A DNA stretch of 38,853 nucleotides, taken from an uncultured Wohlfahrtiimonas sp. GTDB taxonomy: Bacteria; Pseudomonadota; Gammaproteobacteria; Cardiobacteriales; Wohlfahrtiimonadaceae. Below are positions 10,446 to 23,936 of the stretch, piece by piece (positions within the stretch are counted from its first letter, which is position 1; every line of letters begins with the position of its first letter). The notes beneath the pieces were generated by a model. The model did not search any database, was not told where the DNA came from, and worked only from the letters and a program-made list of their open reading frames with translations. The stretch covers positions 1-38,853 of the forward strand of contig CANRJX010000007.1 of assembly GCA_947631095.1 (NCBI GenBank), given 5' to 3'. Made by a program: the position numbers and the translations under genes.

Positions 10446-12086
10446 TTATCCTTCATAGGGAATATACTGCCCTTCTGCTTCTTGAATAAAAGTGTTTTGA
10501 CGATAATCTTCATACTTTTGAATTAAATCTACTAATTTTTCAGGTTGCTCTGTGGCTAAATTTATTGTTTCTAATGGATCATTTTTAATGTTGAACAATA
10601 ACCACTCCCCCAACGTTGCTTTAGGATAAGTACTACTCAAACGTCGAATCTTCCAATCACCTTCTATATAAGCCGATTGATTATGCAATTCGACTGCAAA
10701 AGTATTGCGCAACTGCTCTCTTTTACCCTCTACTAAATTAGTTTTATGGCTAACTCCATAAAACTGTAAACGATCCTTTGGAATATTCACTTCAACATTA
10801 GTCAAGTCATACAATGTTGGTGCTAAATCATAGGCTGCAATATAGTTAGAACTCACCTCACCTTTTAAAGCAGGATTTAACATCGGTGCTTTTAAAATAA
10901 AATCGGTATTGATGCCGCCTTGTGCTGCAGTAGTTTTATGTAGCATTTGATAAGGTGCATTATTAACATTTGCCCAATTCGCACCAACAGATGCAAATGA
11001 GCCTTTGCGTCCTAAGTTTTCTATGCTGTCATCTACATGCATTAATCGCCAAAACTCTTCCTCATCATATAACTCTCTACCACCTGGATTTGCACCATTA
11101 TCCGTAACAAAAGCAACAATCGTATTATCATAACGACCAGTATCTTTTAATGTTTTTAAGACATCGCCAATTTGTTCATCCATAATTGCGATCATAGCTG
11201 CATAGACCTGCATTTTTCTGCTTTCTCTTAATTTTTCCTCATCAGATAATGCACCCCATGTTTCTGCTAACTTAAGATCAGGAATAGGAATTCCTTTAGC
11301 AATCAGTCCTTGATCTACCAAAGCTTTCATACGCGCTAAATAAACTGGTTCATATCCATCTTTATATTTATCTTTAAACTTTTCTATCCATTCATCTGGT
11401 GCCTGAATAGGATCATGTGGTGCCGTAAAAGCTAAATATGCAAAAATTGGCTGATCCTTTGGTGTTTCTTTGATCCACTGAGATAATTGTTGTGCGTAGA
11501 ATGTAGAAGAGTAAAAATCTTCAGGCGGCGTAACTTTTTCACCATCTAATGTGTAATATGTGTGGAATTTTTCTGGCGCACCTAACGGCATCATGTCTGC
11601 AAAATGGCTAGCACCACCGCCCATAAATGCATAAGCATGATTAAAACCACGATCTGTTGGTTTTGCACCATCTTTAAAACCGATATGCCATTTACCCGCC
11701 ATCAAAGTTTCATAGCCATTTTGTTGGAAGACTTCAGGCATCGTTTTAACCCGCTCAGTCAGCTGCATTTCATAACCAGGCTGACCTTCAGTGGAGTCAT
11801 ACCACCACATCCCTCCCATCCCTGCCTGATGATTAGTATTTCCTGTCATCAGCATAGAACGAGCAGGTGCAGACATTGGAGAGGTGTAATATTGATTAAA
11901 ACGTACACCTTCTTCTGCCAAAGTCTGTAAATTAGGTGTTGGTATTTCGCCACCAAATGGTGAAATATCTGAAAACCCCATATCATCAGCCACTATCAAT
12001 AATACATTAGGTTTAGTAAGCGCATCGTCAGCAAAACTATGTCCAAACAAAGAGACACACAATGTCGCTAAAGTTGTTTTTTTCAT
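10446..12086 (-). CDS. Periplasmic arylsulfatase, Ser-type (S-A-P-A-R active-site motif)
   Basis: Signal peptide MKKTTLATLCVSLFGHSFA; NVLLIVADDMGFSDISPFGGEIPTPNLQTLAEEG; SPMSAPARSMLMTG; GKWHIG. ATG at 12086 has better SD spacing than the ORF-track start at 12092. Confidence 0.9.
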   Translation of the reverse strand: MKKTTLATLCVSLFGHSFADDALTKPNVLLIVADDMGFSDISPFGGEIPTPNLQTLAEEGVRFNQYYTSPMSAPARSMLMTGNTNHQAGMGGMWWYDSTEGQPGYEMQLTERVKTMPEVFQQNGYETLMAGKWHIGFKDGAKPTDRGFNHAYAFMGGGASHFADMMPLGAPEKFHTYYTLDGEKVTPPEDFYSSTFYAQQLSQWIKETPKDQPIFAYLAFTAPHDPIQAPDEWIEKFKDKYKDGYEPVYLARMKALVDQGLIAKGIPIPDLKLAETWGALSDEEKLRESRKMQVYAAMIAIMDEQIGDVLKTLKDTGRYDNTIVAFVTDNGANPGGRELYDEEEFWRLMHVDDSIENLGRKGSFASVGANWANVNNAPYQMLHKTTAAQGGINTDFILKAPMLNPALKGEVSSNYIAAYDLAPTLYDLTNVEVNIPKDRLQFYGVSHKTNLVEGKREQLRNTFAVELHNQSAYIEGDWKIRRLSSTYPKATLGEWLLFNIKNDPLETINLATEQPEKLVDLIQKYEDYRQNTFIQEAEGQYIPYEG

Positions 12087-12114
12087 TCCCATATCCTCTC
12101 TATCTTTATAATCA

Positions 12115-13545
12115 TTAAACGTTGTTAATCAATTGAGCTAAGCGCTTTTGATACGATGGCAAGAACCGACTTAAAATAGAGGCATAGAAATACCCACAAA
12201 TCGCTGAACCAAATACCAATATTGGTACTAAATAGATCACTTTAGATTTAATTCCACTCAATACATCTAGATTCATTGTTACGATATACAACACAATCGA
12301 CATTAAAATGGACGCTAAAATAGGTGCGTAGAGAACTTTCCATTTTGGTAGCGCTAATTCCGGTCTTTTATTAAAAAAAGCGATCACAGCAATAGAAACA
12401 AAAATTTGCAACAATAAAATAGCCATCGTTGTAATCGCTGATCCCCATGTAAAAATATCAATCAAAGGATCCTGTCCTAATAAAGCCAACAATACGATCA
12501 TGGTAATCATAAAAACTGTCTGACAAACACTAGAAATATAGGGGGTTTGTTTTGTAGGATGTAAAACTGCTAATTTATTCCAAAACAGTCCATCACGTGA
12601 CATTACATAAAAATAACGAGCAATATTGTTATGAAAAGATTGGGTTGCTGCAAATAAACTTGTGATCAACAAAATATTAATAGTTAACACTGACCACTTG
12701 CCCAATGCTGACTCAGCTAACTGAAATACAAATAATTCAGGATTGGCTGCTACAGCTTCGCGAATATAATCAGAGCCATGAGCTTGAATTAATGCCCAGC
12801 TACAAAATGCAAAAAAACTTGTAATTAATAAAACAGCAATAATGGTTGCTAAAGGAATATTGCGTTCTGGATTTTTGCACTCTTCTGTGTAAATAGCGGT
12901 TGCTTCAAAGCCAATAAAAGCAGCCACTGAAAATACTAGCGCCATCCCAACATTGCCATCAAAAACAATACTTGGCATAAAAGGCTTCGCATCTAAAGCT
13001 CCTAAACTGCCTTGTTTAAAAACGATAACGCAAGCCACTAAAAGTGCAATACCAACTTCTAATAGCATTAAAATGCCTAAAATTTTACCGCCAATCTCAA
13101 TTCGCTCTACACCTAAGAAACAGACGAATAGCAACATGACAATCGTATAAATCCACCAAGGCAAGTCAAAACCCAAATATTCCACAAAAAATATTTGCGT
13201 AAATAAACCAAAAATTGCAGCAATAGCAATTTGAATGGAAGCATAAGCCAAGATTGCTAGTGATAATCCACTGACACCTAATTTACTGCCTAAACCAGCA
13301 GAAATATAAGCATAAAATGCACCTGAATTTTTAATATATTTACTCATGGTAATAAAACCGATAGCAAATAAAAGCAAAATCATTCCAGATAGTACATAAA
13401 TGCCTGATATACCAGCACCATTACCCTCTAATATAGCAACAGGCATCGCACCAATTAAGCCCGTTAACGGTGATGCAGCTGCAACAACAAAAAATACTAA
13501 TGATGCCAAACCTAAACTTCTTTTTGTTTGACCTTGAGACTCCAT
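12115..13545 (-). CDS. APC-superfamily amino acid/amine permease
   Basis: 12-TM-like hydrophobic protein; LASLVFFVVAAASPLTGLIGAMPVAI, AFIGFEATAIYTEECKNPERNIPLAT. 22-28 nt upstream of the sulfatase, so probably co-transcribed. Confidence 0.88.
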   Translation of the reverse strand: MESQGQTKRSLGLASLVFFVVAAASPLTGLIGAMPVAILEGNGAGISGIYVLSGMILLLFAIGFITMSKYIKNSGAFYAYISAGLGSKLGVSGLSLAILAYASIQIAIAAIFGLFTQIFFVEYLGFDLPWWIYTIVMLLFVCFLGVERIEIGGKILGILMLLEVGIALLVACVIVFKQGSLGALDAKPFMPSIVFDGNVGMALVFSVAAFIGFEATAIYTEECKNPERNIPLATIIAVLLITSFFAFCSWALIQAHGSDYIREAVAANPELFVFQLAESALGKWSVLTINILLITSLFAATQSFHNNIARYFYVMSRDGLFWNKLAVLHPTKQTPYISSVCQTVFMITMIVLLALLGQDPLIDIFTWGSAITTMAILLLQIFVSIAVIAFFNKRPELALPKWKVLYAPILASILMSIVLYIVTMNLDVLSGIKSKVIYLVPILVFGSAICGYFYASILSRFLPSYQKRLAQLINNV

Positions 13546-13579: not shown

Positions 13580-13593
13580 ACTAATTTATTAGT
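13580..13593. promoter_or_regulatory. Candidate operator ACTAA-N4-TTAGT upstream of the APC permease
   Basis: ACTAATTTATTAGT, perfect 5+4+5 inverted repeat 34 nt upstream of the permease start; shared with two other promoters in the locus. Confidence 0.5.
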
Positions 13594-13648
13594 GAATTTC
13601 AGTATAGAGCGCATAAGAGAATGGGTAATAGAATAAATCGGAACATTA

Positions 13649-14500
13649 TTAGTTTCTAAAAGCAATTAATTCATCACCAATATGCAATTGATTTATATTA
13701 TCTTTTTCTTTAACCGTACGAATAAATATACTGGGAGTCTGTGCGGCAAATCGCTTAAATTCACGTAGGAAATGAGACTGATCTGCATAGCCTTCATCAG
13801 AAGCGAGATCAGTCAAACTGAGTCGATTATCTATAATCATACGTTGCATCACTCTTTGAAACCTAATAATAAGCGCATAACTCTTTGGAGATAAACCAAA
13901 ATTATCTACAAAAACCTTACTGATATAACGTGAAGAATATCCGGTATATTTTTCCAAATCACCAATGCGTATATCACCTTCACTTAAGGTAATTAAATCT
14001 CGAATTTGTAGCCCAAAAGAAGACAAATCACGATCCATATGATCATTAAAAAACCTTATAAAACAGCTAGATAAATCTTCTATATCATTTAACACACTCA
14101 GTTTTTGGATCAAATCGTGAGATTTCGAAAATAAATCATATAATGAATACTCAGAGTCGACTAAATTTTTAGGTTCAACATTCACAAATTTTGGAATGAA
14201 ACCTGGTTTAAAACGAACGCCAAAATATCGTTTACCTTTCTGTATTTCGACCAATCTTGCTGTCGTTGTTGTGCCACAAAGCCTGGCTTTAGAGTCATTA
14301 CCATCACATAAAAAAAGAATGTCGACACTGGCATCAGGAATGGCAAAAACCTGACCATCGGACAAATCTGCAGTAAAACTATAAAAATGAGAAATGCATG
14401 AATCATTCATAATTTTAATGTCGTAATTCAAACTTGTACTTAATGTAAAGTATGGCTGTATAGTCCGCACTTCTCTTGCTACTCTATCTACTTGAAACAT
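13649..14500 (-). CDS. AraC-family transcriptional regulator
   Basis: C-terminal AraC HTH (IGDLEKYTGYSSRYISKVFVDNFGLSPKSYALIIRFQRVMQRM...DLASDEGYADQSHFLREFKRFAAQTPSIF). ATG at 14500 has SD GAGG; the ORF track extends to 14533. Confidence 0.88.
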   Translation of the reverse strand: MFQVDRVAREVRTIQPYFTLSTSLNYDIKIMNDSCISHFYSFTADLSDGQVFAIPDASVDILFLCDGNDSKARLCGTTTTARLVEIQKGKRYFGVRFKPGFIPKFVNVEPKNLVDSEYSLYDLFSKSHDLIQKLSVLNDIEDLSSCFIRFFNDHMDRDLSSFGLQIRDLITLSEGDIRIGDLEKYTGYSSRYISKVFVDNFGLSPKSYALIIRFQRVMQRMIIDNRLSLTDLASDEGYADQSHFLREFKRFAAQTPSIFIRTVKEKDNINQLHIGDELIAFRN

Positions 14501-14563
14501 TATTAACCTCGACAAAAATGAGATAAAATTCAAAGATTTAATGATTTATCATCATATTTTTTT

Positions 14564-14577
14564 ACTAAGTTAGTAGT
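14564..14577. promoter_or_regulatory. Candidate operator (ACTAAGTTAGTAGT) in the araC / FAD-oxidoreductase divergent region
   Basis: Matches the ACTAA-N4-TTAGT pattern with one mismatch. Confidence 0.45.
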
Positions 14578-14737
14578 GATTAGTTTTGTGATTTTGTCAA
14601 GTTTTATAATTTTATATTTCATTCCAATAGATCATCAGATGTTCTGATTTATTCTATTTTATCCTACGCATATCTCTAACAATAAGAAGCACAACGAATT
14701 CATTACAAAATGAATCACTGAGGACGAGGATAAGCAA

Positions 14738-16039
14738 ATGAGCATAGAGATTGATACAGCCACCTACTACACGGCCACTAAAAAATATTTTATAAATTTC
14801 CCAGAACTTGAAGAAAATATTAATGTTGATGTTGTTGTAATTGGCGGTGGATTTACGGGGATTAATACATCATTAGAATTGGCAGAAAATGGCATTACCA
14901 GCATCGCTGTTTTAGAAGCGAAATATCTAGGATATGGTGGTACAGGGCGCAATGGTGGCCAGATCATGGCTGGTATTGGACATGATATTGAATGTTTAGA
15001 AAGCAGTGTTGGTAAAGAAGGTGTTAAAACCTTATTTGAAATTAGTAACTTAGGTTCACAGATTATTCAAGATCGTATCAAAAAATACGATATTGATGCT
15101 GATTTCAGACATGGATATGCTTATATGGCATTCAATAACCGCCAAACTAAGACCTTGCAATCATGGGAAAAAGATTTCAAATCGGTTGATCCTAATAGTG
15201 ATATTTATATGGTGTATGGCAACGATGTACAATCTGTAATTGGCTCCAAAGCTTATGAAAGTGGCTTAGTACATATGGGTGCTGGCCAAGTACACTCACT
15301 CAACCTCTTACTCGGCGAAGCAAAAGCACTCAGTTCTTATGGGGTAAAAATCTTTGAATATAGCCCTGCTCTAGAAGTAACTTATGGTGAAAAAATTGTT
15401 GTCCGTACCGCTAAAGGCACAGTTACCGCTAAAAAATTACTATGGGCTTGCGATAGTTTTTTAAACAAAATGGAACCTGAGTTACATAAAAAAACCATCA
15501 ACACTTTCGCTTATCAGATGATGACTGAGCCATTATCTGATGAATTAATAGAGCAAATCAGCCCTATTCGAGGTGCATATAGCGATATAAGACCCGTCAT
15601 TGATTATTACAGAGTCACCAATGAAAACCGTTTACTTTTTGGAAGCGCCACTTATTTTGTTGAACATACACCTAGTGATTTAAAAGCATACAACAGAAAA
15701 AATATGCTAAAGATATTCCCATATTTAGAGAAAGTTCACATTGATTTAGCATGGGGCGGACCAATGGCATGTAGTGCCAACCTATTCCCACAAATTGGTA
15801 GCTTACCCAATCATCCTAATGTTTTCTATTGCCAAGGTTATTCAGGCTTTGGTGTAACACCCAGTCATATTGTTTGTAAAGTATTAGCAGAAGGCATTCG
15901 AGAACAAAAAGGTCACTATGACCTATTTGCCCGAGTTAAACATAAATCCATCATTGGTAAAGATCTATTTAGACCATTTTTACTCACTGGTGCAAAATCT
16001 TTTCACCAACTTTCTGGCTATTTTAATGGCCGTCGCTAA
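14738..16039 (+). CDS. FAD-dependent amine oxidoreductase (PuuB/DAO-like)
   Basis: VDVVVIGGGFTGINTSLELAENG Rossmann motif, EAKYLGYGGTGRNGGQIMAGIG, C-terminal YCQGYSGFGVTPSHIVCKVLAEGI. Confidence 0.88.
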   Translation: MSIEIDTATYYTATKKYFINFPELEENINVDVVVIGGGFTGINTSLELAENGITSIAVLEAKYLGYGGTGRNGGQIMAGIGHDIECLESSVGKEGVKTLFEISNLGSQIIQDRIKKYDIDADFRHGYAYMAFNNRQTKTLQSWEKDFKSVDPNSDIYMVYGNDVQSVIGSKAYESGLVHMGAGQVHSLNLLLGEAKALSSYGVKIFEYSPALEVTYGEKIVVRTAKGTVTAKKLLWACDSFLNKMEPELHKKTINTFAYQMMTEPLSDELIEQISPIRGAYSDIRPVIDYYRVTNENRLLFGSATYFVEHTPSDLKAYNRKNMLKIFPYLEKVHIDLAWGGPMACSANLFPQIGSLPNHPNVFYCQGYSGFGVTPSHIVCKVLAEGIREQKGHYDLFARVKHKSIIGKDLFRPFLLTGAKSFHQLSGYFNGRR

Positions 16040-16058
16040 TTAATAAAGGAGCATAACC

Positions 16059-16418
16059 ATGCAAAAAATTAAAAAAAATGTACAGTTAAATGAACTTGAC
16101 AGCTGGGGCACTGTAGCTGATCTCGGATCAGAAATTCTAGAAGGCACTGGCAATGCTTATGGAAAATTTACTGTAGGCAATCCGGAATTGCCAATCAGCG
16201 GTGGTTACTTTGGTGTTGAAAAAAGTAAATTCCGTATGGTATATCCATTTACAGAACAAGCGGTGATCGTAACGGGACAAATTACCTTAACAAATGAAGA
16301 TACAGGTGAAAAATTTGTATTAAATGAAGGTGATAGCTGGATCGTTGAAAAAGGCACTAAAGTATTATGGGAAGTGCATAGCGATTTCTTTGTTAAGCAT
16401 TATTTATCTGCACTTTAA
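16059..16418 (+). CDS. Cupin-fold (DUF861-like) protein
   Basis: 119 aa single-domain cupin pattern (QAVIVTGQITLTNEDTGEKFVLNEGDSWIVEKGTKVLWEV); lies between the oxidase and ALDH genes. Confidence 0.82.
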   Translation: MQKIKKNVQLNELDSWGTVADLGSEILEGTGNAYGKFTVGNPELPISGGYFGVEKSKFRMVYPFTEQAVIVTGQITLTNEDTGEKFVLNEGDSWIVEKGTKVLWEVHSDFFVKHYLSAL

Positions 16419-16432
16419 AATAAATCATAGAT

Positions 16433-16462
16433 GCCCTATTAGCGCTTAAGAACTAATAGGGC
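16433..16462 (+). other. Perfect intercistronic hairpin between cupin and ALDH genes
   Basis: GCCCTATTAG-CGCTTAAGAA-CTAATAGGGC; 10-bp arms, 10-nt loop, no U-tract. Confidence 0.7.
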
Positions 16463-16479
16463 TTACAAAGGAGAACAGG

Positions 16480-17973
16480 ATGAGTGAAACACCAATTTTA
16501 CCAAGTGTAAGCGCATTTTTAAATCAACCATTGGCATCGTTTATTGATGGAAAAATCATCTCTGCTAAAGATCAGCCAACCATGGCGGTATATAACCCTG
16601 CAACAGGTGATGCTTTAACTGATGTTAAAATGTGTCAAATTTCTGACATGAATCTTGCTGTTGAAAATGCACATGCAGCATTTGAAGATCAACGCTGGTC
16701 TGGCATGCGCCCTGCTGACAGAGAAAAAGTACTGTATAAGTTGTCAGAATTACTGTTAGAACATGGTGAAACACTCGCACAATTAGAAACATTGAATCAA
16801 GGTAAATCCATTCATATTGCTCGTGCTGTTGAAGTTCAATCAACTGCTGAATACATTCGATATATTGCAGGCTGGTGTACTAAAATCACCGGGGATACTT
16901 TTGATGTTTCCATTGCTGTTCCTCCTAATACAAAACACACAGCCTTTACCAAAAAAGAACCGATTGGTGTTGTTGCAGCCATCGCTCCTTGGAACTTTCC
17001 ACTCGCAATCGCTGCATGGAAAAGCATTCCTGCGCTCGCAGCTGGTTGTTCAGTGGTTTTAAAACCTGCACATGAAACACCATTAACAGCTTTATATTTG
17101 GCACAACTGGCTATAGAAGCAGGAGTACCAGCAGGTGTATTCAATGTTTTAGTGGGTGCTGATGGTTCTGTTGGCCAAGCATTAGTAGAGCACCCATTAA
17201 TTAGAAAAGTAACGTTTACAGGCTCTACTGCTGTTGGAAAATTAGTCGGCAAAGCAGCTATTGAACATATGGCGCATTTTTCATTGGAATTGGGCGGTAA
17301 AAATCCAATGATCATTATGGATGATGTGGATATGCCTAAAATTATTAATGGCATCATGATGGGGTCATTCCTTAACAGTGGACAAGTATGCGCAGCTGCA
17401 TCACGAATTTATATTCATGAAAATATTTATCAAGCAGTCAAACATGAACTTAGCAAAGTAATTAAAAATCTCGTTATTGGCTCAGGTTTAGATGAAGCAA
17501 CACAAATACATCCTGTTACATCCTTGAAACAACAACAAAGCATCTTAGCACATCTTAATAAAGCAATTGAAGAAGGTGCAAATGTTATCTCTGCTGAGAT
17601 GCCCAATAAACAATCAGGCTATTTCGTTCCACCTACTTTAGTGACTGATATTACAATTGGTAGTCAAATTCTAAAACAAGAAGTCTTTGGCCCAGTAATC
17701 ACACTAGTACCATTTAAAACTGAAGATGAAGCAATACAATTGGCAAATGACTCGGAATATGGCCTCGCAGCGAGCTTGTGGACCAATAATTTATCACTTG
17801 CCATGAATATGATTCCCAAAATTAAATCAGGGACTGTTTGGGTGAATACACATATTCCACTAGATCCTGCAATGCCATTTGGCGGTGTTAAACAGTCTGG
17901 GATCGGTAGAGAATTTGGCAAAACTTCTGTTGAAAGTTTCACAGAAACAAAAACAATCTGTATCGCACATTAA
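16480..17973 (+). CDS. Aldehyde dehydrogenase, phenylacetaldehyde/gamma-glutamyl-aminobutyraldehyde dehydrogenase-like (FeaB/PuuC type)
   Basis: ALDH motifs FTGSTAVGK, LELGGKNPMIIMDD, NSGQVCAAASRI, EVFGPVITLVPF, PFGGVKQSGIGREFG. Confidence 0.93.
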   Translation: MSETPILPSVSAFLNQPLASFIDGKIISAKDQPTMAVYNPATGDALTDVKMCQISDMNLAVENAHAAFEDQRWSGMRPADREKVLYKLSELLLEHGETLAQLETLNQGKSIHIARAVEVQSTAEYIRYIAGWCTKITGDTFDVSIAVPPNTKHTAFTKKEPIGVVAAIAPWNFPLAIAAWKSIPALAAGCSVVLKPAHETPLTALYLAQLAIEAGVPAGVFNVLVGADGSVGQALVEHPLIRKVTFTGSTAVGKLVGKAAIEHMAHFSLELGGKNPMIIMDDVDMPKIINGIMMGSFLNSGQVCAAASRIYIHENIYQAVKHELSKVIKNLVIGSGLDEATQIHPVTSLKQQQSILAHLNKAIEEGANVISAEMPNKQSGYFVPPTLVTDITIGSQILKQEVFGPVITLVPFKTEDEAIQLANDSEYGLAASLWTNNLSLAMNMIPKIKSGTVWVNTHIPLDPAMPFGGVKQSGIGREFGKTSVESFTETKTICIAH

Positions 17974-17992
17974 TATTCAAAATCAGATTGTA

Positions 17993-18038
17993 ATTTAAAC
18001 ATTACACTCCCCCATTTAAGTCGCTTTAAATGGGGTTT
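17993..18038 (+). terminator. Terminator after ALDH; first copy of a duplicated element
   Basis: ATTTAAACATTACACTCCCCCATTTAAGTCGCTTTAAATGGGGTTT; near-identical copy at 20019-20067. Confidence 0.75.
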
Positions 18039-18262
18039 GAGTTGAACGAATTGCTTAAAGTATTTCACATATATTGGCTAATCACATAGCTCTGAACACT
18101 GAAATTCAAACTCTAAAATCTTTTCGGCTATATAGATTATAAATTATAAGATTTAAATGATTTCTCTCTAATTTCATAGCAACTATTACATTGAAATCAA
18201 TTATTTTCCAATTTATTCGAAATAAGTGGACAAATTAATTTTTTATTGAGACATTAAATATT

Positions 18263-18276
18263 ACTAACTTATTAGT
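18263..18276. promoter_or_regulatory. Candidate operator ACTAA-N4-TTAGT upstream of the GMC oxidoreductase
   Basis: ACTAACTTATTAGT, perfect 5+4+5 inverted repeat 74 nt upstream of the start codon. Confidence 0.5.
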
Positions 18277-18350
18277 TAAAAACCATTTAAATTCAAATAA
18301 TAGAAATATATAAAAATTTGCTACTTTGAAGTGGAATATAAGGAGAAATT

Positions 18351-19955
18351 ATGAGAGATAATTATGACTTTATTGTTGTTGGCGCAGGATCTGCTGGCTG
18401 TGTAATTGCTACGATGCTGATAGAACAGACCAATGCAACAGTTTTGTTAATTGAGGCAGGATCAAAAGATAAAACTATACACGCTAAAATACCAGCAAGT
18501 ATGCCATATATGATGGCAAATCATGTATGGGCTTACCAAACAGAACCTGAGCCATACTTAAACCAACGTCGTATGGAAATTCCACAAGGGAAAATTATAG
18601 GTGGTAGCAGTAGCGTAAATGGTATGGCATATATTCGCGGTATCCCAGAAGATTATAATGACTGGGCATATAAATATGGCTGTGCAGGATGGGATTATCA
18701 TAGTGTTTTAAAAGATTTCATTGCTTCGGAAAATAATGAGTCATTATCTGGAGAATTTCATGGAAGTTTAGGCCATCAACATGTTTCTGAAAATCGTTAT
18801 CGTCATCAATTAAGCCATACCTTTATCAAAGCTGGACAAGAATTAGGCTATGAATACACTAACGATTTTAATGGTGAAAATAAAAATAATGTTGTTGGTT
18901 TTTTTCAAACAACGACTCATAAAGGATATCGTGCAAGTACAGCTTATTCATGGCTAAATCGGGTAAGAAATAATTCTAGACTAACCATATTGACCGATTG
19001 TCTAATTGAAAAAATCTTAATTGAAAATAAAAAAGCAATCGGTGTATCTTATCAACAAAATGGCAATAAGATTAACGCTTATGCAAATCATGAAGTCATA
19101 TTGTCAAGTGGTGCTATCGGTTCACCTAAAATCTTGATGCTATCAGGTATTGGCGATCAAATAGAGTTAGAACAATTAGGAATTTCTGTCATTCATCATT
19201 CTCCAAAAGTAGGGAAAAACTTACAAGATCACCTTCATATTAATTTACGTGGATTATTAAAAGAACCTATCAGCATTATTTCTGAAAGTATGGGAATAAA
19301 GAAATTAAGGAATGGCTTACAATGGTTGTTTTTTAAAAATGGTATTGCAAGTTCCAATATATTAGAGGGATGTGGCTTCTTTGATATTGATGGAGATGGA
19401 CGTAGAGATACACAAATACATTCATTCCCTTTAATAGAAAATTTTGGCCGTACTAATGTCAAGAATGATGTTATTGAAGGTTTTACTTTAAAATTAGGGC
19501 AAGTTTATCCTGAGTCTAAAGGTAGTGTTACTCTTAAAAGCAATGACCCTACTGATCTACCTATTATTCGTGCAAATTATTTATCTGCTCCCCATGATCT
19601 TAAAGCGATGGTTGATGCCGTAAAATTTGGTTTAACTTTTTTTGATACACCCGCGATGAAAAATATCATCTCTGAAGTTATCGTTCCTGATTCAAGTATT
19701 CATAATGATGATAAAAAACTGGAAGAATTTGTCCGCAATGAATCATTAACAGTATTTCATCCTGTCGGCACATGTGGAATGGGACCTAACGAAGATGATG
19801 TATTAGATATTGATTTAAAGGTTAGAGGTATTGATTCTTTAAGAGTCATTGATAGCTCAATTTTCCCGCATATTGTGAGCGGTAATACAAATGCTGTTGT
19901 TATTATGGTTGCACATCGTGGAGCTAGGAATATTATAAAAGATTATTGTGCATAA
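18351..19955 (+). CDS. GMC-family FAD oxidoreductase (choline/alcohol dehydrogenase-like)
   Basis: DFIVVGAGSAGCVIATML, GKIIGGSSSVNGMAYIRG, SSGAIGSPKILMLSGIG, FHPVGTCGMG, SGNTNAVVIMVAHRGA. Confidence 0.92.
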   Translation: MRDNYDFIVVGAGSAGCVIATMLIEQTNATVLLIEAGSKDKTIHAKIPASMPYMMANHVWAYQTEPEPYLNQRRMEIPQGKIIGGSSSVNGMAYIRGIPEDYNDWAYKYGCAGWDYHSVLKDFIASENNESLSGEFHGSLGHQHVSENRYRHQLSHTFIKAGQELGYEYTNDFNGENKNNVVGFFQTTTHKGYRASTAYSWLNRVRNNSRLTILTDCLIEKILIENKKAIGVSYQQNGNKINAYANHEVILSSGAIGSPKILMLSGIGDQIELEQLGISVIHHSPKVGKNLQDHLHINLRGLLKEPISIISESMGIKKLRNGLQWLFFKNGIASSNILEGCGFFDIDGDGRRDTQIHSFPLIENFGRTNVKNDVIEGFTLKLGQVYPESKGSVTLKSNDPTDLPIIRANYLSAPHDLKAMVDAVKFGLTFFDTPAMKNIISEVIVPDSSIHNDDKKLEEFVRNESLTVFHPVGTCGMGPNEDDVLDIDLKVRGIDSLRVIDSSIFPHIVSGNTNAVVIMVAHRGARNIIKDYCA

Positions 19956-20018: not shown

Positions 20019-20067
20019 ATTTAAACATTACACTCCCCCCCATTTAAGTCGCTTTAAATGGGGGTTT
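20019..20067 (+). terminator. Terminator after GMC oxidoreductase; second copy of the duplicated element
   Basis: ATTTAAACATTACACTCCCCCCCATTTAAGTCGCTTTAAATGGGGGTTT. Confidence 0.75.
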
Positions 20068-20245: not shown

Positions 20246-21235
20246 ATGTCTAAATTATTTACCTTATCACTATTGGCTTTAAGCATTTCACCTTTAGTAG
20301 CACAAGAATTAACAGTATATTCTTCTCGTGCCGAGCAATTATTGCAACCAGCCATTGCTAAATATAAAGAGCAAACAGGTGTAGATATTAAATTGGTCTC
20401 AGACAAAGAAGGTCCTTTAATGGAACGTATGCGTGCTGAAGGTAAAAACTCACCTGCAGATATATTAATCACTGTAGATGGTGGTAATTTATGGCAAGCA
20501 TCACAAATGGGTTTATTGCAACCAATTGAATCTACAGTTTTAGAAGAAAATATCCCCGCTCATCTTCGCGATGAAAATAATGAGTGGTTTGGCTTATCAG
20601 TACGCGCTAGAACAATTTTCTATAATAAAGATAAAGTTAATCCTGCTGATCTTTCTTCATATGAAGACTTAGCTGATCCAAAATGGAAGGGCAAATTATG
20701 CCTACGCACTTCTAAAAAAGTTTACAACCAATCTCTTGTGGCAATGTACATCACTGATATTGGTCCAGAAAAAACAGAAAACATGGTAAAAGGCTGGGTT
20801 AATAACTTAGCAACACAGCCATTTGCAGATGATACAGCACTTTTGGAAGCAATCGCAGCGGGTCAATGCGAAGTTGGCATTGCAAATACTTATTATTTTG
20901 GTCGCTTATTGAATCAAAAGCCTGAGTTGCCTGTGGAATTATTTTGGGCGGATCAAGAAAGCAATGGTACACATGTGAATGTTTCTGGTGCAGGCGTTGC
21001 CAAATATTCAAAAAATAAAGAAGAAGCACAAAAATTCATTGAGTGGTTATCAACTGATGATGCACAAAACCTATTCACTGATTTAAATTATGAGTTCCCT
21101 GCAAACTCAAAAGTTGCACCAAGCCCAGAAATCGCAAAATGGGGTGCATATAAACAAAATGTAATTAACGTATCGAATGCAGGCAGCAAACAAAAAGAAG
21201 CTGTCATCATTATGGATCGCGCTGGTTATCGTTAA
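20246..21235 (+). CDS. fbpA: Fe(3+) ABC transporter substrate-binding protein (FbpA/FutA type)
   Basis: Signal peptide [59 protein letters not shown] (YY iron-ligand motif). ORF-track start 20222 is a TTG. Confidence 0.9.
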
Positions 21236-21256
21236 TTGTCTATTTGATCAGTCAAT

Positions 21257-21290
21257 AAAAAGCCGCATGAGTTACTATGCGGCTTTTTTT
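21257..21290. terminator. Bidirectional terminator between convergent fbpA and fbpBC
   Basis: AAAAGCCGCAT-GAGTTACT-ATGCGGCTTTTTTT. Confidence 0.85.
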
Positions 21291-21291
21291 A

Positions 21292-22311
21292 TTAAAATGC
21301 GATCACCTCTCCAACATTCAATGTAATCGCTACATTTCCTTTGCGAATGCATGGCCAATCTGCAACAAGCTTTTCACCATTCATTAACTCAATATGATGC
21401 CGAATATGCTCCCCCTGAAAATCAGTCTGAACAACTTTTGCATTATGTGCAATATCTTCGCAGCACAAAACCTCATGAGTTCGCACTAATAGCTTAACTT
21501 CTGTCCCAATAGATAAACCATGTGGAACATCATAATAATGTTGCCCCAAAGCACTTTGCAAGACTGTTTCACTTTTGACAAATGCTTTAAGCCACTGCCC
21601 TTTTCCTAAAAATGAAGCCACTTTTTCATTACAAGGCTTATGAAATAAATTTTCAGGGCTATCCCACTGCTGTAAAACGCCATCAGATAAAATACCTATC
21701 TTATCTGAAAAAGCAAAAGCTTCTTGTTGATCATGTGTCACTAAAATTGCAGTAATGCCTTCAGCTTTTAACAAATTGCGAATCTCTTGTGCCAAACTTG
21801 TTCTTAAATCAGCATCTAAATTTGAAAAAGGTTCATCTAACAGCAACAGTTTTGGTTTTGGTGCTAATGCACGCGCAGTTGCAACTCTCTGTTGTTGCCC
21901 ACCTGATAATTGATGAGGATAGTAATCCCCATAAGATTCTAAATTAATGAGCGATAATAGCTCTTTAACACGTGCTTCTTTTGCGGCTTTACTCAATTTC
22001 GTAAGCCCAAAAGCAATATTATCTTTCACAGTTAAATGAGGAAATAAAGCATAATCTTGAAATACCATTCCTACCTGTCTTGCATGTGGTGGCAGCGAAG
22101 AATTTTCAGAAAATAATGTTTGATCATCCAATAAAATTTGACCGGAATCAGGAACTTCAAACCCCGCAATACTTCTCAAAACAGTTGTTTTACCACAACC
22201 AGAAGGGCCTAATAAACATGCTATTTCACCTTTAGCCAAAGATATGCTGAGCTGTTCAACTATTTTTCGTTGGCCAAAAGCGATCCGTAAATTATCTATA
22301 GCGAACCACAT
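21292..22311 (-). CDS. fbpC: Fe(3+) ABC transporter ATP-binding protein
   Basis: Walker A GPSGCGKTT, LSGGQQQRVATARALAPKPKLLLLDEPFSNLD; ATG at 22311 overlaps the permease stop as TAATG. The N-terminal 25 aa of the ORF-track entry is spurious. Confidence 0.92.
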   Translation of the reverse strand: MWFAIDNLRIAFGQRKIVEQLSISLAKGEIACLLGPSGCGKTTVLRSIAGFEVPDSGQILLDDQTLFSENSSLPPHARQVGMVFQDYALFPHLTVKDNIAFGLTKLSKAAKEARVKELLSLINLESYGDYYPHQLSGGQQQRVATARALAPKPKLLLLDEPFSNLDADLRTSLAQEIRNLLKAEGITAILVTHDQQEAFAFSDKIGILSDGVLQQWDSPENLFHKPCNEKVASFLGKGQWLKAFVKSETVLQSALGQHYYDVPHGLSIGTEVKLLVRTHEVLCCEDIAHNAKVVQTDFQGEHIRHHIELMNGEKLVADWPCIRKGNVAITLNVGEVIAF

Positions 22312-23936
22312 TACACTCTCTTCTCCTGTCGAGAAAACAATAAAACGGGAATTAACCCTGTTAACACGATCAATAAAGAAGGCCATGCTGCTAAACTGTA
22401 TTGACCTTCTGTTGTAAAGTTAAAAATTCTAACCGCCAAAGTATCCCATCCGAATGGACGGATCATCAGCATGATGGGCATTTCTTTCATAACATCGACA
22501 AAAACCATCAGCATTGCAATGCTTAATGCGCCTTTTAGCAAAGGCAAATGGATGGCTGTGACGAGAGATGCACCTGTTTTTCCCAAGCTTCTAGCAGCCT
22601 CTTCCTGTTGTGGTGAAATGCGCTCCAATCCTGACTCTATAGAAGAGAATGCAATCGCCATAAATCTTACAGCATATGCCAATATCAATACGCCCAATGT
22701 ACCTTTAATCCAGCCCATACTGCTTTCACTTAAACCAAACAGCTCAATCAACTGATTATCCAGCCATGCCACTGGTACAAAAATACCGACCGCTAAAATT
22801 GTTCCCGGAATGCCATACCCCAATGTTGCGATTTTGGTTAGCCATATACTTTGATTCGTTTTAATAAAGCGTTTAGACAAGGCCAAACCTAAAGCTGAGA
22901 TCATTACAAAAAAAGCAGCCAATAAAGCAATCACCAATGAGTGCATCGCATAGCTCCACAAATTCACATCAAATGCACTGCCCCATGTTTGATAAGCCCA
23001 TACAATTAACTGACCCACTGGCAAAATAAAAGCCATAATTAAAATAATACAGCAGTAAAAAGTCGCAAATATTGCTTGCCAACCCTTCAATTGAATGCGT
23101 AACTCTTGTTGCGATTTGCCTAGTTGAGTGAATCTTTTTTGTTTTCTGCTGTATTGCTCTATCAGTAATAATGCAAATACTATGATGATCATAATTGAAG
23201 CTAATTGCTTAGCGGTTTCAATTGAGAAGAATGAATACCATGCTTGATAAATTGCAGTAGTAAATGTATCAAAGTTAAAAATAGAGACCGTACCAAAATC
23301 GGCTAAAGTTTCCATTAATGCTAATAAAGTGCCACCTGCAATCCATGGTCTTGCCATCGGTAAGGCAATTTTAAAAAACGCCTGTACAGGATTCAAACCC
23401 AAACTTGCACCGACTTCTAATGATCTTTTGCCCATACTTGAAAATGCATTTCTAGCCAATAAATAGACATAAGGATAAAATGCCAAGCTCATCACCATGA
23501 CAACACCTGCAGCATTACGAATATCAGGCAAACCTTTAGATAAACCCCAACTATTTCGTAAATAAGTACTCATTGGACCACTGTATTCAAATAAGCCCAC
23601 TTGGCTAAATGCCATTACATAAGCGGGAATTCCAAGAGGTAACATTAATGCCCAAAAAAATATCTTCTGCCCAGGAAAGCGATAAATAGCAGTCAACCAC
23701 GCACTTGTTGTGCCCAAAATAAGTGTACCAATGCCTACGCCAATTAATAAAATAAAAGTATTGCTCAGCAGTGTAAGCATTCTAAATTCTAGTAAATGTG
23801 CCCATAATTCTTGATCAATATCTTGATAAGAGGACAAAATAACACCTATAGGTAGCAATATAATTGCCACCCAAAACCATTGCCACAACTTTCCTAACAA
23901 ATAACTCAAAATTACGACCCTATGCTTTAAGAGCAC
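22311..23936 (-). CDS. fbpB: Fe(3+) ABC transporter permease (fused two-domain)
   Basis: 541 aa, two permease domains with EAA-like motifs (EVGASLGLNPVQAFFKIALPMARPWI; EEAARSLGKTGASLVTAIHLPLLKG). The exact start (GTG at 23936) is uncertain. Confidence 0.9.
   Translation of the reverse strand: MLLKHRVVILSYLLGKLWQWFWVAIILLPIGVILSSYQDIDQELWAHLLEFRMLTLLSNTFILLIGVGIGTLILGTTSAWLTAIYRFPGQKIFFWALMLPLGIPAYVMAFSQVGLFEYSGPMSTYLRNSWGLSKGLPDIRNAAGVVMVMSLAFYPYVYLLARNAFSSMGKRSLEVGASLGLNPVQAFFKIALPMARPWIAGGTLLALMETLADFGTVSIFNFDTFTTAIYQAWYSFFSIETAKQLASIMIIIVFALLLIEQYSRKQKRFTQLGKSQQELRIQLKGWQAIFATFYCCIILIMAFILPVGQLIVWAYQTWGSAFDVNLWSYAMHSLVIALLAAFFVMISALGLALSKRFIKTNQSIWLTKIATLGYGIPGTILAVGIFVPVAWLDNQLIELFGLSESSMGWIKGTLGVLILAYAVRFMAIAFSSIESGLERISPQQEEAARSLGKTGASLVTAIHLPLLKGALSIAMLMVFVDVMKEMPIMLMIRPFGWDTLAVRIFNFTTEGQYSLAAWPSLLIVLTGLIPVLLFSRQEKRV

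Follow-up and report, generated by a model that had tools for sequence, protein, structure and literature searches.

Predicted HpaR-type operators in the promoters of an amine-utilization cluster from an uncultured Wohlfahrtiimonas sp.

Among the described systems closest to the locus studied here is the monoamine regulon of Klebsiella aerogenes, reportedly the work of Murooka and co-workers. In Salmonella, a tyramine-induced oxidoreductase, SEN2971/STM3128, has been assayed (PMC8070173); judging from annotation and gene order, SEN2971 appears to be the same oxidoreductase as the homologue considered below. For 4-hydroxyphenylacetate (4-HPA) utilization, the binding site of the regulator HpaR was footprinted in Yersinia as TTAA-N4-TTAA, with one copy overlapping the -10 element of hpaG (PMC7180172), and by the account given in that paper the HpaR protein of E. 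coli W protects TTAA-N4-TTAA as well. In the 3,4-HPA catabolon of Pseudomonas putida U, as cited in the same source (PMC7180172), tyn is coupled to hpa and HpaR is described as the repressor of the meta operon.

In this work, a comparative genomics approach was applied to a 38,853-nucleotide stretch of DNA from an uncultured Wohlfahrtiimonas sp., which as a whole is referred to as the window. By homology only, the window contains tyramine-type oxidation genes and an arylsulfatase, as in the Klebsiella monoamine regulon, and three of its promoter regions share a palindrome. A preliminary description had taken the palindrome as the mark of a single regulon, with the neighbouring AraC-family protein as the obvious candidate regulator. 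The explanation that accounts best for the whole, and that we hold to be very probable, is that the palindromes are HpaR operators, and that repression by HpaR and activation by the AraC-family protein would together control an upper pathway feeding 4-HPA.

The amine cluster and its palindromes

The genes were assigned from Pfam and NCBIfam (Table 1). The oxidoreductase homologues at 63-64% identity belong to Salmonella, Klebsiella, Pantoea and Erwinia, and homologues of this oxidase adjoin hpa genes in Pantoea, Erwinia and Sphingobium. Taken as a set, the oxidase, cupin, aldehyde dehydrogenase, permease and sulfatase resemble the tyramine ("monoamine") clusters of Klebsiella and Salmonella, and the likely chemistry is the conversion of an aromatic amine to an aldehyde and then to 4-HPA; oxidation of tyramine itself is suggested by homology and by the hpa linkage. 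The active-site motif of the sulfatase, S-A-P-A-R, is of the serine type, for which a maturase of the anSME type would be required. Near-identical stretches, each approximately 40 bp long and containing a terminator-like hairpin (CCCCATTTAAGTCGCTTTAAATGGGG), follow both the aldehyde dehydrogenase gene (17994-18035) and the GMC gene (20020-20066), as if the latter had been added by duplication. After the GMC gene (20252-23936) come a gene for a solute-binding protein, which weakly resembles 2-aminoethylphosphonate and other solute-binding protein families, and two ABC transporter genes. In the host, an AraC-like regulator beside the HPA hydroxylase genes (L104:5357-6282) is apparently split into two frames.

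Table 1. Genes and candidate regulatory elements of the window
Feature	Position	Strand	Remarks
Sulfatase	10446..12092	-	62%/42% (two pieces) to K. aerogenes arylsulfatase AtsA; 22 bp after permease
APC-type amino acid/amine permease	12115..13545	-	
Operator O1, predicted HpaR-type	13580..13593	.	ACTAATTTATTAGT, exact; ATG of permease 34 bp on
Candidate AraC box, permease promoter	13628..13641	-	CCGATTTATTCTAT, exact
AraC-family regulator	13649..14500	-	DUF6597 and HTH_18, both above cut-off
Operator O2, predicted HpaR-type	14564..14577	.	ACTAAGTTAGTAGT, one mismatch; araC/oxidase gap; 63 bp to araC ATG, 160 bp to oxidase ATG
Probable -35 of araC-direction promoter (inferred)	14590..14600	-	TTGACAAAATC; identical in G008, TTGACA also in G002
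Candidate AraC box, oxidase promoter	14644..14657	+	CTGATTTATTCTAT, one mismatch; exact in G008
FAD-dependent amine oxidoreductase, DAO family	14738..16039	+	63-64% to Enterobacterales homologues
EutQ-like cupin	16059..16418	+	
Aldehyde dehydrogenase	16480..17973	+	nearest is phenylacetaldehyde dehydrogenase StyD, below the model's cut-off
Weak AraC-box-like element before GMC	18208..18221	+	CCAATTTATTCGAA, three mismatches, uncertain
Operator O3, predicted HpaR-type	18263..18276	.	ACTAACTTATTAGT, exact; GMC ATG 74 bp on
GMC oxidoreductase	18351..19955	+	

On re-reading of the sequence, the three palindromes were found exactly as previously described, two of them perfect and one with a single mismatch, and all are intergenic and near start codons (Table 1). 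The 4-bp spacer and the TAA-N4-TTA core are exact in O1 and O3, and O2 is off by one base. O1 is located just downstream of the presumed permease -10 element, TATACT; the -10 elements were assigned by eye, and a promoter scan gave nothing above shuffled sequences. Two alternative readings of O2, as ACTAAgTTAGT (5+1+5) and as belonging to AraC-like direct repeats of TTAGT with 10-bp spacing, were dropped because neither is common to the other sites and the relatives. The Trp repressor, which has the half-site ACTA-N6-TAGT, was set aside as the palindrome binder once the link to hpa appeared.

Two exact copies occur in the window versus 0.06 expected per shuffled window, and at least two were obtained in 1 of 300 shuffles. 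In a post hoc test, in which the three gaps were shuffled and any half-site was allowed, exact 5+4+5 palindromes in two gaps, together with one within one mismatch in the third, were obtained in 1 of 3000 shuffles. The host assembly (G000) comprises 2.30 Mb and is 81.5% complete, so that some of its sites may be missing. All three matches of the pattern ACTAAnTTAnTAGT, which was fitted to the three window sites, fall in the window. Of the nine assembly matches of the looser pattern ACTAANNNNTTAGT, two are in the window, one is located approximately 50 bp upstream of hpaR, and four of the remaining six lie within open reading frames.

Distribution of the motif and its probable assignment to HpaR

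In the related genome G008, the best palindromes lie inside an hpa region, which pointed to HpaR. The hpaR gene of the host (C28:2582-2965) is identified by model TIGR02337 with 138.6 bits versus a cut-off of 121.2. The cut-off is exceeded in 5 of the 18 genomes of the family (G000, G002, G003, G007 and G008), and no HpaR above it was found in the others. The consensus RCTAAYWTATTAGY was defined on hpa promoters at a stage when the window sites were already known, although each position is justified by hpa sites alone. It occurs in G000 at six places: O1 and O3 in the window, and four hpa promoters on other contigs, three of them on the hpa contig C28 (including C28:2504 before hpaR, where the palindrome is ACTAATATCTTAGT) and the fourth on C52, 26 bp upstream of hpaG (C52:9576). 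High frequency across the genome, which the preliminary description had named as evidence against a regulon, was thus not observed for the hpa-derived consensus. The three matches in G002 belong to the promoters of hpaG, an hpa transporter and the GMC orthologue, and both matches in G003 are in hpa. Two hpa promoters are matched in G007, along with one position inside an hpa gene, and two in G008, along with one inside an unrelated gene. In total, 15 of the 17 matches in the five HpaR-containing genomes fall in hpa, permease or GMC promoters. Of the two HpaR-lacking relatives scanned, G013 is without a match, and the two matches of G015 fall within unrelated genes, none in a promoter. In HpaR-containing genomes, palindromes are present at promoters of hpaR, hpaG, the hydroxylase and hpa transporters, and the hpaR/hpaG gaps of G002, G003, G007 and G008 contain them.

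The sites at the hpaR/hpaG promoters and the RCTAAYWTATTAGY scan make HpaR, encoded on another contig, the most likely identity of the "different factor" that had been allowed for previously, and the regulon most likely takes in the 4-hydroxyphenylacetate genes as well. The proposal of one regulon with a shared operator is retained, as a prediction, for the permease/sulfatase, araC/oxidase and GMC units, but not the role of AraC as its regulator.

A contig scan with the AraC protein as the query found no relative; a second scan, queried with the alignment of the oxidase, yielded four loci. Both relatives with the amine cluster, G008 and G002, keep a degenerate counterpart of O2 before the orthologous oxidase, each with a mismatch: ACAAACATATTAGTGAT in G008 and ACGAATATGTTAGTGAT in G002 (locus L063). 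In G002 the latter is situated in the permease/oxidase gap, yet this genome is without araC. The GMC orthologue of G002 is 68% identical to that of the window, and ACTAACTTATTAGC lies 54 bp before its start. Conservation in orthologous promoters, as previously proposed for checking, was therefore found in part: degenerate at the oxidase promoters and exact before the GMC orthologue, but with no palindrome seen in the permease gap of G008. The G008 amine cluster is itself decaying (L026:10836-11700 and 17318-19705), with an aldehyde dehydrogenase gene broken by a transposase gene and only fragments of the GMC gene; the place of the window sulfatase is occupied there by a deacetylase that shares 56% identity with K. 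aerogenes hdaH.

The site of the window's family, CTAA-N4-TTAG, has the same 4-4-4 layout as the footprinted HpaR site, with a half-site one base off. The TTAA half-site is not matched letter for letter, and CTAA is also found at the family's own hpaR/hpaG promoters. The palindromes of the hpaR/hpaG gap in Erwinia (ATTAACATATTAAT) and Klebsiella (GTTAATATATTAAT) both fit TTAA-N4-TTAA. The recognition helix reads ILSPS in the window's family versus ILRPS in Klebsiella and Erwinia and ILKPS in Acinetobacter; covariation of the CTAA or TTAA operator with the recognition-helix residue is suggestive only, given the few lineages. In A. baumannii, the oxidase/araC gap contains GTTAATATATTAAC, the sole RTTAAYATATTAAY match in the 4.09 Mb record, approximately 9 kb from hpaR. 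A single frame of 732 residues in an A. baumannii record (L070:163-2361) begins as an aldehyde dehydrogenase and ends as an HPA oxygenase, which suggests a fusion by deletion. The oxidase promoters of Erwinia and Pantoea lack the palindrome, and the wiring is therefore not general. We give even chances to a broader proposal, in which HpaR of this family would be a pathway-wide repressor gating both amine or conjugate entry and ring cleavage, the operator would have drifted from TTAA to CTAA along with the change of the helix residue from R/K to S, and Acinetobacter would have the same wiring with a TTAA operator. With both steps gated by HpaR, the pathway product 4-HPA would induce its own supply.

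The AraC regulator and alternative binders

Comparison of the gaps beside homologous araC genes revealed a second cis element, CCGATTTnTTCTAT, which is the probable AraC site. It is exact in seven araC-linked loci: the permease promoter of the window, the oxidase promoter of G008, and five Enterobacterales gaps (araC-permease or araC-aminotransferase). Genome-wide, exact copies number one in G000 and two in G008, the second of the latter (at 1286290) being inside an unrelated gene; none was found in G002, a genome without araC. By eye, a plausible -10 element follows CCGATTTnTTCTAT by about 20 bases in these promoters, a layout expected of an activator overlapping the -35 element. A class-wide search for the AraC protein gave distant homologues only, and the one in G176, beside a tyramine-oxidase-B-like gene, lacks both the palindrome and the AraC box.

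The local AraC/DUF6597 protein could itself be proposed to bind the ACTAA palindrome, as its gene is the only regulator gene adjoining the sites and is flanked by them. However, the element kept beside araC homologues is CCGATTTnTTCTAT, whereas the Enterobacterales loci are without the palindrome; G002 has the palindrome and neither araC nor an exact AraC box; and the hpa promoters of G002, G003 and G007, all lacking araC, carry the palindrome. We thus consider AraC binding to the palindrome very unlikely, and the regulator suggested previously is better assigned to its own element. A somewhat less remote alternative, still improbable, is that another dimeric regulator binds the hpa and amine promoters, either an unlinked MarR protein or the MarR-like domain fused to HPA reductase. 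Other MarR proteins are indeed present, and an HPA reductase whose C-terminal part is MarR-like, as recognized by reading, is encoded near sites in G000, G002 and G008. The sites, however, are found at the promoter of hpaR or of the adjacent hpaG, and have the layout of the footprinted HpaR operator, and promoter matches are absent from the two HpaR-lacking relatives G013 and G015.

The palindromes might finally be chance AT-rich inverted repeats, given that two-mismatch matches are not in excess within the window (28 versus 29.3 expected) and that further exact 5+4+5 copies lie inside genes. The post hoc shuffle test, the restriction of the hpa-derived consensus in G000 to hpa and amine promoters, and the site before the GMC orthologue in G002 strongly disfavour this explanation, which we rank as the least probable.

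Proposed regulation and comparison with described systems

In the model that we infer, HpaR would block transcription of three units (permease-sulfatase, araC and GMC) by binding to the core of each promoter or immediately downstream of it; through repression of araC, the oxidase operon would indirectly be kept low as well. As expected from HpaR of E. coli and A. baumannii, release would be brought about by 4-HPA or a product of the pathway. The AraC/DUF6597 protein, presumably sensing an amine or aldehyde, would activate the permease and oxidase promoters from CCGATTTnTTCTAT boxes overlapping the -35 elements. The permease may import an aromatic amine such as tyramine, and the sulfatase may free an aromatic amine from sulfate esters; the FAD oxidoreductase would form the aldehyde, the aldehyde dehydrogenase would convert it to 4-HPA, and the HpaR-controlled hpa genes would degrade the latter. 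More speculatively, an alcohol such as tyrosol may be the source from which the GMC enzyme supplies that aldehyde.

An anonymous palindrome is thereby turned into a testable regulon, in which one repressor would govern amine uptake and oxidation together with 4-HPA ring cleavage. The likely substrate, tyramine, bears on gut and food microbiology. Two cis elements at the same promoters are told apart, a candidate binding site is proposed for DUF6597 AraC regulators, a group so far uncharacterised, and a natural covariation of operator and recognition helix may be on offer.

Regulators of the DUF6597 type, 34-37% identical to that of the window, are found by tyramine oxidase subunit B clusters in Pantoea, Rahnella, Klebsiella and Chimaeribacter, with CCGATTTnTTCTAT exact before the permease; these clusters differ from the window in having another oxidase, and no ACTAA palindrome was seen in them. 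The S. Senftenberg tyramine locus shares the aldehyde dehydrogenase, FAD oxidoreductase (64% to the window), cupin and APC permease, but has a LuxR-type regulator nearby and no AraC. In the K. aerogenes monoamine regulon, the oxidoreductase, cupin, aldehyde dehydrogenase and APC permease are located beside a deacetylase, the annotated regulator MoaR and atsB-atsA. Identities to the window are 63% for the oxidase, 42% for the aldehyde dehydrogenase and 62%/42% for the sulfatase, and the Klebsiella permease gave no match to the window at E<=1e-20. In contrast to Klebsiella, no atsB was seen in the window, and its cluster has, in place of a MoaR-type regulator, the AraC/DUF6597 protein plus the predicted control by HpaR. 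The P. putida U catabolon likewise couples an aromatic-amine upper pathway to hpa, whereas a direct HpaR operator in amine genes is a prediction from the window. The operators of the hpa-meta operon in E. coli W and Yersinia pseudotuberculosis (PMC7180172) resemble the sites described here in the MarR-family HpaR, the 4-bp half-sites, the 4-bp spacer and the promoter-core position; in the window's genome, the half-site is CTAA instead of TTAA, and the predicted targets additionally include the amine uptake and oxidation cluster and the GMC enzyme.
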